Assembly: GCA_027055805.1 (NCBI GenBank)
Contig: JALUMR010000026.1
Location: 1 to 45,443, forward strand
Length of the DNA: 45,443 nucleotides
DNA from: Campylobacteraceae bacterium
GTDB lineage: Bacteria > Campylobacterota > Campylobacteria > Campylobacterales > Sulfurovaceae
Direction of reading: 5' to 3'
Part shown: positions 7,450 to 38,232 of the stretch, piece after piece
Numbering within the stretch: position 1 is the first letter of the stretch
Layout: the number at the start of each line of letters is the position of its first letter
The notes under the pieces: model-generated
The model's input: only the letters and a program-made list of their open reading frames with translations
Told to the model about the DNA's origin: nothing
The model's database searches: none
Program-made: the position numbers and the translations under genes

Positions 7450-8265
7450 TTAGTTACATTTTGCATCCCCAAGTTTTCTTAATTCATCACATGTGAAACC
7501 AGCTTTTTGACGTGCAGCAACGTTAATATGGGGTCTATGCTTCTCTAATAATTTATATTTTTCTAAAATATTAAAATAAATTGAGGTATCTAAGTTTCTT
7601 CTCTTGCAAATATTTTTAAACCAATAATCACCTTTATTAACATGAATAATTTCTTCATCATAAATAACTTTAAGAATTTTAATTAATTTTTTAACGGGAA
7701 GAAGTTTTCGCTTGTTATCAAGTTTTTTACTAATTTGTGGGTTAACATCCAATCCACTGGCTTCATGATATCTGGGAATTATTGCCATTCTATCAAGTAT
7801 ATTATCTGCCGTATATTTGGCAGCATCAAAAAGTCCACAATGAACAGGGAAATCTCCATATTTAAAACCCAAATCATGTAATAACTCTTCAAGCATCTGA
7901 TAGTGTCTAACTTCATCTAATGCAACTTCTAACCAATCCAATTTAAAATGTTGTGGCATTTCAGGGTAACGATAAACAGCATCTAATGCTAAATCTATCG
8001 CTGAGTACTCTATGTGAGTTATAGCATGTACTAAGGTTGATAATCCTTCTGGCGTATCAAAATCTTTTCTTGCTTTTAATTCTTTAGGATTTACAATTTT
8101 ACACCTATTAATATAGGATGGATTATCAAATTTAAGAGGGTTAAAACCTTCAGAAGATATAAATTCATTTTGGCTACAATACTCAAAACATTGCTGTGTC
8201 AGTTTTTCTTTAGTCTCAATACAATCACTTGTAATGGCTTCTTCTAAAATTTTATATAGTTTCAT
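7450..8265 (-). CDS. DUF455 family ferritin-like protein
   Basis: 271 residues of the COG2833/DUF455 family, a ferritin-like helical bundle related to diiron proteins. Candidate metal ligands are placed as expected for such a bundle: Glu86 in HIEY, Glu118 and His121 in DEVRH (EXXH), and Glu205 and His208 in DEEIIH (EXXH). The biological substrate of this family is not established. It diverges from the metallo-hydrolase gene with only 27 bases between starts. The tail is Lys/Cys-bearing (GDAKCN) and unremarkable. No partner genes adjoin it on the same strand. Confidence 0.85.
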   Translation of the reverse strand: MKLYKILEEAITSDCIETKEKLTQQCFEYCSQNEFISSEGFNPLKFDNPSYINRCKIVNPKELKARKDFDTPEGLSTLVHAITHIEYSAIDLALDAVYRYPEMPQHFKLDWLEVALDEVRHYQMLEELLHDLGFKYGDFPVHCGLFDAAKYTADNILDRMAIIPRYHEASGLDVNPQISKKLDNKRKLLPVKKLIKILKVIYDEEIIHVNKGDYWFKNICKRRNLDTSIYFNILEKYKLLEKHRPHINVAARQKAGFTCDELRKLGDAKCN

Positions 8266-8292: not shown

Positions 8293-8895
8293 ATGGAAAT
8301 TAAAATTCAACCTATGGGTCAAACCCAAACAAACTGCTATATTGTTACAATAGACAATAAAGACCTAATTATTGACCCAGGTATGGGTGCAACATCATGG
8401 GTACTCAATAATACTACAAATCCAGTTGCAATACTTAATACACATGGGCACTATGACCATGTATGGTCAAATGCAGAATTAAAAGAGAAATTAAAAATAC
8501 CACTCTATATATCAAAAGATGATGCATTCATGTTAGAAAAATGTGTTCTTGGTCAAAATCCACCTAGTAGTAAAGCAGATATATTAGTCAATGGGGATGA
8601 AGAGCTTACTATAGAGGGTATTAAAGTTCAATATCGCCACTTTCCAGGTCATACTCCTGGTAACTCTATTATCGAAATAAAAGATGTATGGTTTTCAGGT
8701 GATTTCTTATTTCAACAATCAATAGGAAGATGGGACTTCCCTTTCTCTTCAGGAGAAGAGATGATAAAGAGTTTAGAAAAAGCCATGAAAATAGAAGGTG
8801 ACTTTACAGTTTATCCAGGTCATGGCATGAGTACAACACTCAAACAAGAACAGCGTGGAATGCCTATGTGGTTGGAGTATGTAAAGAATAATTAA
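8293..8895 (+). CDS. Metallo-beta-lactamase fold hydrolase (YcbL/glyoxalase II-like)
   Basis: 200 residues with the full metal-binding set: THGHYDH (HXHXDH, 51-56), His120 in PGHTPG, Asp137 in SGDFLF and His177 in YPGHG. The short form without the glyoxalase II C-terminal domain matches YcbL-type thioester hydrolases and the conserved Campylobacter protein Cj0809c, which also lies near nadE-lpxK; here lpxK is a few genes away. The likely role is hydrolysis of S-lactoylglutathione-like or related thioesters in the cytoplasm, though the substrate is uncertain. A good AAGGAG site precedes the ATG. Its 3' side runs into an inverted repeat shared with hsrA. Confidence 0.88.
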   Translation: MEIKIQPMGQTQTNCYIVTIDNKDLIIDPGMGATSWVLNNTTNPVAILNTHGHYDHVWSNAELKEKLKIPLYISKDDAFMLEKCVLGQNPPSSKADILVNGDEELTIEGIKVQYRHFPGHTPGNSIIEIKDVWFSGDFLFQQSIGRWDFPFSSGEEMIKSLEKAMKIEGDFTVYPGHGMSTTLKQEQRGMPMWLEYVKNN

Positions 8896-8896
8896 C

Positions 8897-8992
8897 GTAG
8901 GGTGTAGTCCCTGACTACACCGTGTTATAATAATTAAGATTTATAAAAAGTTAAATTTAATTTTAATGGTGTAGTCGAGGACTACACCCTAC
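8897..8992. repeat. Paired palindromic repeats between convergent genes
   Basis: Two ~25-base units in inverted orientation (8897-8921 and 8968-8992), differing at only two positions, flank an AT-rich core of about 46 bases. Each unit is itself a perfect 9-bp hairpin: GGTGTAGTC, 3-base loop, GACTACACC. The right unit contains the hsrA stop codon at 8989-8991. The layout is like a BIME (paired REP sequences) or small MITE and could serve as a bidirectional terminator for the two convergent genes. Confidence 0.75.
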
Positions 8993-9654
8993 TTTTCATA
9001 AGAAAATTTATATCCACGTCTTCTTACCGTGTGAATTACCTGAAAACCTAAAATACTCTTAAGTCTTTTTCTAATCTGATTAATAGCAACCTCAACAGTA
9101 TTATCACTCACATACTCTGGCTCTTCCCAAAGCGCATTAATAATCTCATCTTTTGAAAAGACTCTATCTTCTCTTAGAGCTAAGTATGCCAGTATATCAA
9201 ATGTTTTACCATTCAGTGATACTATTTTGTCGTCATACTCTATTTTTTTGTTAGTAATATCTATAACCAATTTACCAACATCAATCTGTGTTCCAAAAAG
9301 TTTTCTCATATTTGAAAGTACTCTTGCAGCTATAAGCTCTGCTGAGCCTATAAACTCAACAATAACATCATCTACACCTAAGCCAAAAAGAGATATTTGA
9401 TTTTTATTATCAGTAGTTAAAACTATAATTTTTGTTTCTCTTTTTTTCTTTTTGACCTCTTTACTATATTTCTCTAATGTATATCGTTCACCTTCATCTA
9501 CTATTATTATAAGTTCATAGTGTCTGAAATCTGTAAAATTTGTAGCATCATACAAGTCTCTAGCTGAATCTACTATACAAATAAAATATTTTTCTAATTC
9601 GACTTCCAGTTCTTTTACAAACTCATCATCAAAACCGATGGTTAATATTCTCAT
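8989..9654 (-). CDS. hsrA: Atypical orphan OmpR-family response regulator, HsrA/CosR type
   Basis: 221 residues: a receiver-like domain (1-115) and a winged-helix DNA-binding domain containing WEEPEYVSDNTVEVAINQIR and ending HTVRRRGYKFSYEK, close to H. pylori HsrA (HP1043) and C. jejuni CosR, the essential phosphorylation-independent regulators of redox and homeostatic genes. The phospho-acceptor site is lost: the aligned residue is Val52, followed by Asp53, as in HsrA where Ser precedes Asp; the KP motif is also gone. The ATG at 9654 has AGGA six bases upstream, whereas an ATG five codons earlier has no ribosome site. No kinase gene adjoins. A minus-strand TATAAT is at 9675-9680. It probably acts as a constitutive dimer. 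Confidence 0.88.
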   Translation of the reverse strand: MRILTIGFDDEFVKELEVELEKYFICIVDSARDLYDATNFTDFRHYELIIIVDEGERYTLEKYSKEVKKKKRETKIIVLTTDNKNQISLFGLGVDDVIVEFIGSAELIAARVLSNMRKLFGTQIDVGKLVIDITNKKIEYDDKIVSLNGKTFDILAYLALREDRVFSKDEIINALWEEPEYVSDNTVEVAINQIRKRLKSILGFQVIHTVRRRGYKFSYEK

Positions 9655-29961: not shown

Positions 29962-30332
29962 TCTTTTTTTACCTCTTCTTTATCGTTTTTAAATGTCTGC
30001 CAAAATGGAAAGGTTCGACATTGTAATGGTCTTACAGGGTATATTGTACACTGTTTTAGATTATTATCAAAAAAAATACAGGCATAATTATCTTCTTCTA
30101 GTTTTTTTTCAACCAAAGAATAACGATGTTTAACCTTTTTAACATACATTGTAGCAAATTCTTCTACTGATAACTTTAAAAAATCAGCCATTTTTTCTAT
30201 CTCATGATATTTTGCCCATATATAACCACTCGCACCCGTACAACAAGCACCTCCACATGCTTCACATGCAGAAGGAGTAAATTTATAATCATATCCCTCT
30301 TCACTCAATATACTACTATTTTCCAATATCAT
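29940..30332 (-). CDS. YkgJ-family cysteine-cluster protein
   Basis: 130 residues with the CxxCxxxCC cluster at the start (ACEACGGACC), followed later by YACIFFDNNLKQCTIYPVRPLQCRTFPFW. This is the YkgJ/UPF0153 pattern thought to bind zinc or an Fe-S cluster. The role is not established; relatives are linked to metal handling or flagellin lysine methylation. It overlaps the methyltransferase stop by 17 bases and the lipoprotein start by 22, so it is in the same operon. AAGGAG precedes the ATG. Confidence 0.88.
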   Translation of the reverse strand: MILENSSILSEEGYDYKFTPSACEACGGACCTGASGYIWAKYHEIEKMADFLKLSVEEFATMYVKKVKHRYSLVEKKLEEDNYACIFFDNNLKQCTIYPVRPLQCRTFPFWQTFKNDKEEVKKECPGIID

Positions 30333-31023
30333 AATCTCCTTTTATACTATTTGTTCCTGCTTTTTTAAAAACATTTTTTGCTTCTTCATTATACTTACTA
30401 TTTTCATCAAAAACAATAAGTGGTGGCATTACCCTCATCATAGATTTTGAATTCATACGTGCTGCTATCATAACCAATTTTGAGTCTCTATCTATTTTAG
30501 AATGCACAAAACGTATCACTTCAGGGTTTATATTGTTCTCTATCAATGTATGTAAAAGTCTATCTACTTGTTTTGCATCATAACAAAAGATAAAACGCCC
30601 TCTTGGATTTAATACTTTTTTAACCTTAGCTATAAATAATTCTATAGGTAAATGATGTGAATAACGAGCAATATTCAGATGCTCATTTTCACTCTGCTTT
30701 ACATTTGAATCATAAAAAGGTGGATTTGAAACGACAAAATCATACTTCTTATTATCTAACAACTCTATAAAATCACCCAAATAACTCTCAACTTTTAGTT
30801 GATTAAGTTCATAATTATGTTCTGCATACTTCAACATCAGCTTTTGTTTATCTATAATAGTTGTTTCAAGGTTAAAATCACGTGTAAGTAACAAAGAGAT
30901 AATACCAACTCCACAACCAACATCAAGTAAGCTACCTTTAGGTTGGAAAAAAGAAATAAAATCATACAAAAATATTGAGTCACTGTTATAAGCATAACCC
31001 TTGGTTGGTTGATATAGATACAA
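30316..31023 (-). CDS. TrmN6/YfiC-like adenine N6-methyltransferase
   Basis: SAM-dependent methyltransferase with LLDVGCGVGIISLL (SAM site) and the catalytic NPPF of N6-adenine methylases (VVSNPPFYD). It is likely to modify A37 of tRNA1(Val) or another RNA. A TTG at 31023, with AAAGG six bases before it, gives a 235-residue protein starting MYLYQPTKGYAYNSDSIFL, the usual family beginning. A longer frame from ATG 31095 would add 24 hydrophobic residues and share CATG with the divergent bpt start, so it is less likely. It heads the ykgJ-TPR-trpC run. Confidence 0.8.
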   Translation of the reverse strand: MYLYQPTKGYAYNSDSIFLYDFISFFQPKGSLLDVGCGVGIISLLLTRDFNLETTIIDKQKLMLKYAEHNYELNQLKVESYLGDFIELLDNKKYDFVVSNPPFYDSNVKQSENEHLNIARYSHHLPIELFIAKVKKVLNPRGRFIFCYDAKQVDRLLHTLIENNINPEVIRFVHSKIDRDSKLVMIAARMNSKSMMRVMPPLIVFDENSKYNEEAKNVFKKAGTNSIKGDYDIGK

Positions 31024-31080
31024 AAAATTACCTTTAGTTAAAAATAAATCAAATTTTACTATAAATTGACAATTTTTAGA

Positions 31081-31112
31081 TAAAATTCTTATCATGAAAG
31101 ATAAGAATTTTA
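31081..31112. promoter_or_regulatory. 13-bp perfect inverted repeat enclosing the bpt start codon
   Basis: TAAAATTCTTATC (31081-31093), then ATGAAA, then GATAAGAATTTTA (31100-31112). The ATG of bpt is the first half of the loop and no Shine-Dalgarno sequence precedes it. A TTGACA lies at 31066-31071. As RNA this would put the start codon in an exposed loop on a long stem; as DNA it could be an operator between the divergent genes. Confidence 0.55.
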
Positions 31113-31855
31113 CAGAAACCCCACCACAATCAACAGATTTTTGTATGTTGGACTACGACTGTGCCTATTTACCCAATAAAAGTGTACGAATGAGTTATAA
31201 ACATATAGAAGAAGCAACACAAGAATACAATACAGCTCTTATTCATCGTGGATGGCGTCGTTTTGGTTGTTACTATTTTCATCCTATTTGTGAGGGATGT
31301 AACGAATGTAAATCTTTGAGAATCGATGTTAATAACTTTCAACTTCGTAAATCTCAAAAAAAAGCCATAAAACGAAATAAAGAGACAAAAATTATTATTC
31401 AAAAACCTACACTTTCACAAGCACATATTGACCTATACAATAAATACCATGCCTTTAAACATAAAAAAGATGACTGGTCTCATAGAAATATCTCACCACG
31501 TGAATATAGAGAAAACTTTGTAGAAGGTGCACATGATTTTGGGAAAGAAGTACTTTACATAAAAGATGATGAATTAATCGGTGTTGATTTAATTGATGTA
31601 CTTGATGATGGAATATCTTCCATATACTTCTATTATGACCCAGATTATCCTTCACTTTCATTAGGAACCTACTCACTACTCTACCAAGTTGAACTTGCAA
31701 AAGTTTTAGAACTTCCATGGATATACTTAGGCTATTGGGTTGATGGTTGTAAAGCATTTGCATACAAACAAAAATTCCAGCCGTTAGAAGTCCTAGATAG
31801 CTTCCCAACTATTGAAAAAGTTGCAAAATGGAACATTTTTCCAACTCAATCTTAA
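31094..31855 (+). CDS. bpt: Aspartate/glutamate leucyltransferase (N-end rule)
   Basis: Transfers Leu from Leu-tRNA to N-terminal Asp or Glu, marking proteins for ClpAP degradation. 253 residues of the bacterial Bpt (ATE1-related) family: N-terminal Cys pair with DYDCAYLPNKSVRM, the CYYFHPICEGCNECKSLRI segment, KKDDWSHR, and the GNAT-like ending SIYFYYDP, SLGTYSLLYQ, YLGYWVDGCKAFAYK. The ATG is needed to keep the first conserved Cys, yet it sits in the loop of a 13-bp dyad and has no ribosome site. It diverges from the methyltransferase. Normal length. Confidence 0.92.
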   Translation: MKDKNFTETPPQSTDFCMLDYDCAYLPNKSVRMSYKHIEEATQEYNTALIHRGWRRFGCYYFHPICEGCNECKSLRIDVNNFQLRKSQKKAIKRNKETKIIIQKPTLSQAHIDLYNKYHAFKHKKDDWSHRNISPREYRENFVEGAHDFGKEVLYIKDDELIGVDLIDVLDDGISSIYFYYDPDYPSLSLGTYSLLYQVELAKVLELPWIYLGYWVDGCKAFAYKQKFQPLEVLDSFPTIEKVAKWNIFPTQS

Positions 31856-36969: not shown

Positions 36970-38232
36970 CTACTCACTCAAACGTGAAATATCTGCTCCA
37001 AGTGAAGCCAGTTTTCCTTCTAAATTATCATACCCTCTATCCAAATGGTAAATTCGATGAACATTGGTTGTTCCATTAGCAACTAAACCTGCTAAAACCA
37101 AAGCTGAACTTGCACGTAAATCGGTTGCCATAACATCAGCACCGTTTAATTCTACTACAGGATTAACAGCTGCAATTGAACCTTTTAGCCAAATATCTGC
37201 ACCCAAACGGTTAAGCTCACTCACATGCATGAAACGGTTTTCAAAAAGTCGCTCTTCTATAACACTCTCGCCTATTGCCATCGTTGCTACTGCCATAAAC
37301 TGTGCTTGCATATCAGTTGGAAACCCTGGGTACTCGGTAGTAATCAGGCTTACTGGTTTTAGACGACTGTTCCCATGTATGGTTATCTTTTCATCTTCTA
37401 TATCAAAAGTACAACCCATCGCTTCAAGTTTATCTATAGAGGCATCTATGTGTGTTGCATTGACCTTTTCAAGTGTAATGGTCGAAGCTGTAATGGCTGC
37501 TGCACAAAGGTAAGTTCCAGCCTCTATTCTGTCAGGGATAATCTCTACATCTTTAAAAGTTAAAGGTTTCCCTCTTGTTCCTTCTATAATAATTTCAGAA
37601 GTTCCAATACCCTTTATATTAACACCTGCATCAACTATCATTTCACAAAGCTGTACTATCTCTGGCTCTTTTGCTGCATTTATTATGGTAGTTGTACCAT
37701 GTGCCAAAGCTGCTGCCATAACAATGTTTTCTGTTCCACCTACGGTAATTTTATCAAAAACAATTTTAGCACCTTGTAGACCATTTGGTGCTTCTGCTCT
37801 TACGTATCCACCTTTTATCTCTATTTTCGCACCCATAGCTTCTAAAGCCGTTAAGTGTAAGTCAATAGGACGCTGACCAATGGCACAACCACCAGGCAGA
37901 CTCACTTCACATTCACCAAACCGTGCTAAAAGTGGTCCTAAAACCAAAATAGATGCTCTCATTTGAGATACTATCTCATAAACTGCTTTGGTAGAGTTCA
38001 TGGTTCCATTGTCAATATTGGCTACAGTATCGTTATGCTCAACGGTTCCACCCAAAATATCTAAAAGTTTAAGAAGTGTTCTAATATCAACTACATTGGG
38101 AAGATTTATTAATTTTACAGGTTTGTCTGAAAGAATGGTTGCTGCTATAACAGGAAGTGCTGAATTTTTTGCACCAGAGATTTGAATGGAACCAGAAAGC
38201 TTAGTTCCACCTTTAATTTTTAAGTAATCCAT
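36970..38232 (-). CDS. murA: UDP-N-acetylglucosamine 1-carboxyvinyltransferase MurA
   Basis: First committed step of peptidoglycan synthesis, adding enolpyruvate to UDP-GlcNAc. 420 residues of the EPSP-synthase fold: SGAKNSALP with Lys22, catalytic Cys116 in [52 protein letters not shown] and [12 protein letters not shown]. Since Cys116 is present, the enzyme would be expected to be fosfomycin-sensitive. It is alone on the minus strand, between terminators and the divergent TTG-start gene. Length and motifs are normal. Confidence 0.97.

Follow-up and report, generated by a model that had tools for sequence, protein, structure and literature searches.

The start codon of bpt, which encodes an arginyl/leucyl-tRNA-protein transferase, lies in the loop of a perfect inverted repeat (dyad) in the window, as we call the whole stretch of 45,443 nucleotides analysed here. 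What does this dyad do at the start of the gene, if it does anything? A preliminary description named three options: a translation-control hairpin, an operator shared with the divergent methyltransferase gene, or a leaderless start. We judge it very probable that the site forms the bpt side of a compact divergent sigma-70 promoter and gives rise to a leaderless mRNA, and that the dyad arose by chance. The features discussed below are the following:

30316-31023, minus strand: methyltransferase gene (MTS domain, weakly TrmN-like), with its likelier start at TTG 31023-31021; the reading frame is open to 31095
31031-31035, minus strand: Shine-Dalgarno (SD) sequence AAAGG of the methyltransferase, 7 nt before the TTG, as read from the sequence
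31053-31058, minus strand: predicted -10 box TAAAAT of the methyltransferase, back-to-back with the bpt -10 box at a distance of 22 bp
31060-31065, plus strand: TATAAA, possible second -10 box of bpt; TATAAA or TATAAT is found here in 22 of 28 genus junctions
31079-31086, plus strand: predicted sigma-70 -10 box of bpt, GATAAAAT; TANAAT is found here in 28 of 28 genus junctions and in the split copy L223; motif gnTAnaAT (PMC3847290)
31081-31112, no strand: perfect dyad of 13 bp; the left arm is made of -10 box and spacer, the right arm of bpt codons 3-7
31087-31093, plus strand: 7-nt spacer from the -10 box to the start codon; relatives differ at the five bases next to the box (31087-31091)
31094-31096, plus strand: ATG, the start codon of bpt, where transcription of a leaderless mRNA is predicted to begin; 53 of the 56 distinct junctions in the family have a spacing of 6 or 7 nt
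31094-31855, plus strand: bpt, 253 aa, with Pfam ATE_N and ATE_C and NCBIfam NF002344

The dyad and the bpt start codon

The dyad is present exactly as first described: the arms at 31081-31093 and 31100-31112 are complementary at 13 of 13 positions (100%), and the loop, ATGAAA, contains the bpt start codon. A perfect 13-bp arm with a loop of 3-10 nt appeared in 3 of 100 dinucleotide-preserving block shuffles of the window (mean 0.03 per window). The dyad is unusual for a single window, and about one would be expected by chance in a 1.8-Mb genome (0.03 times approximately 40 windows). The window holds one further perfect dyad of this size and loop range, at 1384-1414, which directly follows a stop codon, is followed by TTTTTAT and resembles an intrinsic terminator. 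A different kind of repeat is found at 8887-8995, where an intergenic inverted-repeat pair, GTAGGGTGTAGTC / GACTACACC (arms of 28 nt, 89%), may be a small repeat element or a two-way terminator.

The identity of the gene is well supported: bpt scores 354.4 bits against NCBIfam NF002344 (cut-off 252), with a match that starts at residue 13, and the Pfam ATE_N match covers residues 21-90. Its C. jejuni counterpart carries the tag Cj1035. An SD scan ahead of ATG 31094 gave no match, which bears out the earlier claim that bpt has no SD sequence. Among window open reading frames of at least 100 aa, 32 of 48 have an SD at an in-frame start within the first 40 codons.

The predicted -10 box and its conservation

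Matches to bpt were found in 48 of 60 genomes, in 30 of 34 genomes of the genus and in 222 of 298 genomes drawn from the order (own genome counted; at the order level, loci were taken only from among the matches listed). A search through named genomes gave 196 confirmed loci, of which the best 80 were used, mostly from Sulfurovum or Campylobacteraceae/Campylobacterota metagenome assemblies. In all, 219 loci representing 182 distinct junctions were classified, 80 of them a selection from the further matches listed. The genus count comprises 29 loci and 28 distinct junctions; a split copy carried by G014 and the second copies carried by G019, G023 and G026 were scored apart from it. The rest of the family contributes 28 distinct junctions from 29 of the 30 matching genomes (G256, whose match is weak, is left out).

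The window junction reads GATAAAAT-TCTTATC-ATG. In the genus, TANAAT stands 7 nt before the start in 27 of the 28 distinct junctions and 6 nt before it in one; with the split copy in G014 (L223), which was read later and has GGTAAAAT-N7-ATG with TAAAAT as its box, the box lies 6-7 nt before ATG in 29 of 29. A block from -42 to -8 is strongly conserved in the genus, with few weak columns, and ends in TAAAAT. The box is near-invariant in the 28 junctions, whereas the information content at spacer positions -7 to -3 is 0.24-1.06 bits. Across the family, the offset is 7 nt in 49 and 6 nt in 4 of 56 distinct junctions. Outside the genus, 24 of the family's 28 distinct junctions are leaderless-type, one has both signals and three are SD-type. 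As background, 12 of the window's 1787 ATGs have TANAAT 6 or 7 nt before them. Some genomes of the genus carry a second bpt copy that has diverged; the four such copies (L112, L220, L221 and L222) are 25-56% identical to the window bpt over the aligned stretch, and TATAAT-N7-ATG is found in 4 of 4.

The window bpt thus has the three features by which leaderless mRNAs of the Campylobacterota type are recognized: gnTAnaAT at 5-9 nt from an ATG, no SD before the start, and ATG as the start codon. The leaderless start, named last in the preliminary description, is strongly supported by the placement of TANAAT 6-7 nt before the start in all 28 genus junctions, the lack of an SD and agreement with the published rule. 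RNA polymerase would read the -10 box GATAAAAT (31079-31086) of the divergent promoter, bpt transcription would begin on the A of ATG 31094 or a few bases from it at most, and the resulting leaderless mRNA would be translated from its 5'-terminal AUG without an SD sequence.

Two other genes in the window have comparable starts. The gene at 7450-8265 (minus strand) has no SD match and reads GGTATAAT-N7-ATG, making it another likely leaderless gene; that at 36970-38232 (minus strand) has TATAAT-N5-ATG. A leaderless-type scan match for the gene at 8293 lies inside coding sequence, looks like chance and was discarded.

Beyond the family, the arrangement is found in 9 of 15 loci of family f6, 9 of 16 of f18 and 1 of 6 of f16. 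It was not found in f4 (0/15), f20 (0/16), f10 (0/3), f8 (0/2), f11 (0/1) or f22 (0/1), nor in the second-copy loci of f6 (0/4). A match to the divergent methyltransferase was found in 0 of the 31 loci of f6 and f18, the f18 stretches reaching only about 200 bases upstream. Since the arrangement occurs in f6 and f18 without a methyltransferase match, it is not tied to that neighbour. In a crude test, a same-strand frame of at least 45 codons ends near the bpt start in 15 of 15 f4 loci, 10 of 16 in f18, 5 of 15 in f6 and 4 of 16 in f20; the counts are 10 of 29 loci for the family outside the genus and 1 of 29 for the genus itself. We claim that bpt lies directly behind another gene for f4 only; the same claim for f20 was dropped on its 4 of 16. 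Points that weigh against the leaderless reading include the share that common ancestry has in the conservation seen between related genomes, and the lack of the arrangement in f4 and f20.

A second hexamer is found further upstream in the genus. At 28 nt before ATG, 17 junctions have TATAAA and 5 have TATAAT; in the rest of the family, TATAAW lies between -45 and -15 in 2 of 28. This hexamer may drive an additional bpt transcript with a leader of approximately 21 nt that would have no SD and would hold the left arm of the dyad, and it slightly lowers our confidence in the leaderless reading. Because the box beside the ATG is common to the whole family, the leaderless start is kept as the main one.

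Some relatives appear to have exchanged one mode of initiation for the other. In L064, L074, L075, L087, L095 and L097, TATAAT is kept and the start lies 28-35 nt away, with an AAGGAG SD between them; this start is 21-28 nt further on than the leaderless position. We interpret these six as a leaderless/leadered swap on a kept box. In a quick protein tree of 104 rows, the division between leaderless-type (88) and the rest (16) needs at least seven changes (the tree is unrooted, has many weak branches and gives no direction), and L074, L075, L087, L095 and L097 form one group (SH-aLRT 99). Non-ATG starts are found at 9 of 18 SD-type junctions versus 1 of 112 leaderless-type junctions, the latter being a second copy in f6 (L197); SD-type starts were chosen mechanically and a few, such as L123 and L182, may be wrong. 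L098 apparently has two TATAAT boxes in succession ahead of bpt; an ATG follows the second of them, and none follows the first. The bpt gene of this lineage offers a natural test of how a gene moves between leaderless and SD-led translation.

Pairing in relatives and other readings of the dyad

If the dyad were a translation-control hairpin, the mRNA would begin upstream of 31081 (perhaps driven by TATAAA at 31060-31065, a place where most genus junctions keep TATAAA or TATAAT) and the AUG would be displayed or hidden in the loop. A transcript of the window sequence beginning at 31071 would indeed fold stably (-12.8 kcal/mol, z -6.1), and none of 200 shuffles matched it. However, seven genus relatives give weak folds of 0 to -5.1 kcal/mol (z -1.25 to +1.90), and an Rfam search of 30700-31500 with E up to 1 gave no match.

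Nor is the pairing itself kept. In the frame of the dyad, 13 of 13 positions form Watson-Crick pairs in the window, 11 of 13 in L004 and 8 of 13 in L005 (the two nearest distinct relatives, bpt 94% identical in each), and 3-10 in the other 25 genus junctions. In alignment A1, standard pairs occupy 65.1% of cells versus 63.6% +/- 1.0 in shuffles (33 of 500 as high). Four pairs have double changes (428 of 500 shuffles), 11 cells are changed on both sides versus 10.7 (256 of 500), and the covariation score of 0.108 is reached by 146 of 500 shuffles. Compensatory changes at the junction, which would be expected of a functional stem, do not exceed those of shuffled alignments. The register of the dyad does pair better than registers slid by 1-3 columns (65.1% versus 37.9-53.3% of cells). 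This reflects mainly the outer pairs, in which the near-invariant TAAAA of the -10 box stands opposite T-rich Phe-Thr codons; in these pairs the left side is unchanged when the right side varies. Pairing, folding and covariation are all against the hairpin, which we rejected and regard as very improbable.

Slightly less credible still is an operator at which a regulator would control both divergent genes. The dyad has a palindromic form and covers the bpt -10 box and start, a place where a repressor could act. However, the complete palindrome is found in only 1 of the 28 distinct genus junctions (one shared by the window, L003 and L032), and few stretches of the junction are as poorly conserved as the inner left arm. 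In addition, the genome assembly (1,805,407 bases, 74.69% complete) has no second copy of the dyad pattern at up to three mismatches. With neither conservation nor further copies, the operator was also rejected. Both the hairpin and the operator fail the check proposed in the preliminary description, a comparison of the pairing in relatives.

Least probable of all is a canonical -35/-10 promoter, TTGACA-N18-TATCAT at 31066-31095, that would start transcription inside bpt and impose a downstream translation start: it has 11 of 12 consensus bases, and the next in-frame ATG (31145, residue 18) would spare the whole Pfam ATE_N match, but that start would cut into the NF002344 match, the consensus scan returned two promoter-like sites where shuffles average 1.5, and TATCAT is found at that place in only 2 of 28 genus junctions (L002 and L004), a lack of conservation on which we rejected it.

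Under the preferred reading of a leaderless promoter, the dyad would consist of a -10 box and a freely varying spacer that chanced, in one lineage, to complement bpt codons 3-7, and the left arm would stay untranscribed. That the dyad is unusual for the window, folds well if transcribed and pairs better in its own register than in slid ones speaks against chance; on balance, its position on top of the bpt promoter looks like coincidence. AT-rich -10 boxes beside AT-rich first codons can yield start-site dyads by chance, which is a caution for similar cases. What began as a conspicuous hairpin becomes an ordinary yet informative promoter.

The divergent gene and comparison with known systems

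The divergent methyltransferase is only weakly related to the TrmN-like family (54.8 bits, cut-off 350). As stated in the preliminary description, a minus-strand ATG (31095-31093) overlaps the bpt ATG as CATG; the overlap exists, but its use as an alternative methyltransferase start is unlikely. CATG is rare in the genus (2 of 28 junctions). Among 90 distinct divergent loci, 18 have a methyltransferase frame that stays open as far as the bpt start. An ATG, GTG or TTG preceded by an SD falls no more than three codons from residue 25 in 66 of these 90 loci; the corresponding start in the window is TTG 31023, which has its own SD. The first matched residue of the protein lies at 21-28 in 52 loci, at 13-20 in 14 and at or before 12 in 24. 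The methyltransferase would be transcribed from its own -10 box (31058-31053, minus strand), with a short SD-bearing leader and a start at TTG 31023.

The methyltransferase is divergent in 81 of 111 distinct leaderless-type junctions, its start being more than 110 nt away in 11 of these. A minus-strand TANAAT is found between the genes in 68 of the 70 distinct leaderless-type loci in which the methyltransferase start lies within 110 nt. Of these 68 loci, 46 have a gap of 11-14 bp between the back-to-back -10 boxes, 21 a gap of 22-23 bp (all in the window's genus) and one a gap of another length. The two gap classes differ by approximately one helical turn, probably through one event. A TANAAT match is cheap in AT-rich DNA, so the evidence for paired boxes would be the constancy of the gap, which is itself partly shared descent. 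A broader proposal is that a family-wide, mutually exclusive pair of divergent promoters couples a leaderless N-degron transferase to an SD-led tRNA-type methyltransferase: polymerase might occupy one -10 box at a time and so set the ratio of products, and bpt might still be made when SD-led initiation falters. We offer this as speculation and think it rather doubtful.

In start-codon hairpins and RNA thermometers, the AUG lies within a potential hairpin. The bpt AUG shares this property; unlike in those systems, relatives do not keep the pairing and the 5' arm probably lies outside the mRNA.

Bacterial bidirectional promoters have start sites 7-25 bp apart and reciprocally overlapping -10 positions (Warman et al. 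2021, as described in a passage of PMC10268837). The bpt locus resembles the promoters of that passage in having two divergent -10 boxes in one short stretch that serve two genes. It differs in that the boxes, 22 bp apart, do not overlap and the starts predicted from them are approximately 49 bp apart (approximately 39 bp where the gap is 12). The predicted spacing is too wide for a bidirectional promoter in the published sense, and this classification was rejected.

The closest counterparts are the leaderless mRNAs of Campylobacterota. According to the main text of Porcelli et al. (2013, PMC3847290), 948 of the 992 starts in C. jejuni have gnTAnaAT 4-8 nt upstream, with no -35 element, and 12 starts mapped by dRNA-seq fall on the first base of the initiation codon. 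The same text describes the use of gnTAnaAT-N5-9-ATG to predict leaderless genes in 42 genomes, and predicted conversions to and from the leaderless form among orthologs. According to a passage of PMC11955535, six C. jejuni cases are supported by Ribo-seq. Neither bpt nor Cj1035 is named in the main text of PMC3847290, and our literature search found no paper joining leaderless mRNA with arginyltransferase. The window bpt resembles the C. jejuni and H. pylori leaderless mRNAs, as described in that main text, in its gnTAnaAT-N5-9-ATG, its lack of an SD, its ATG and the swapping among orthologs. The bpt promoter would thus be a further case of a known Campylobacterota type; bpt as the gene concerned, and the spread of the arrangement through the family, come from the present analysis.
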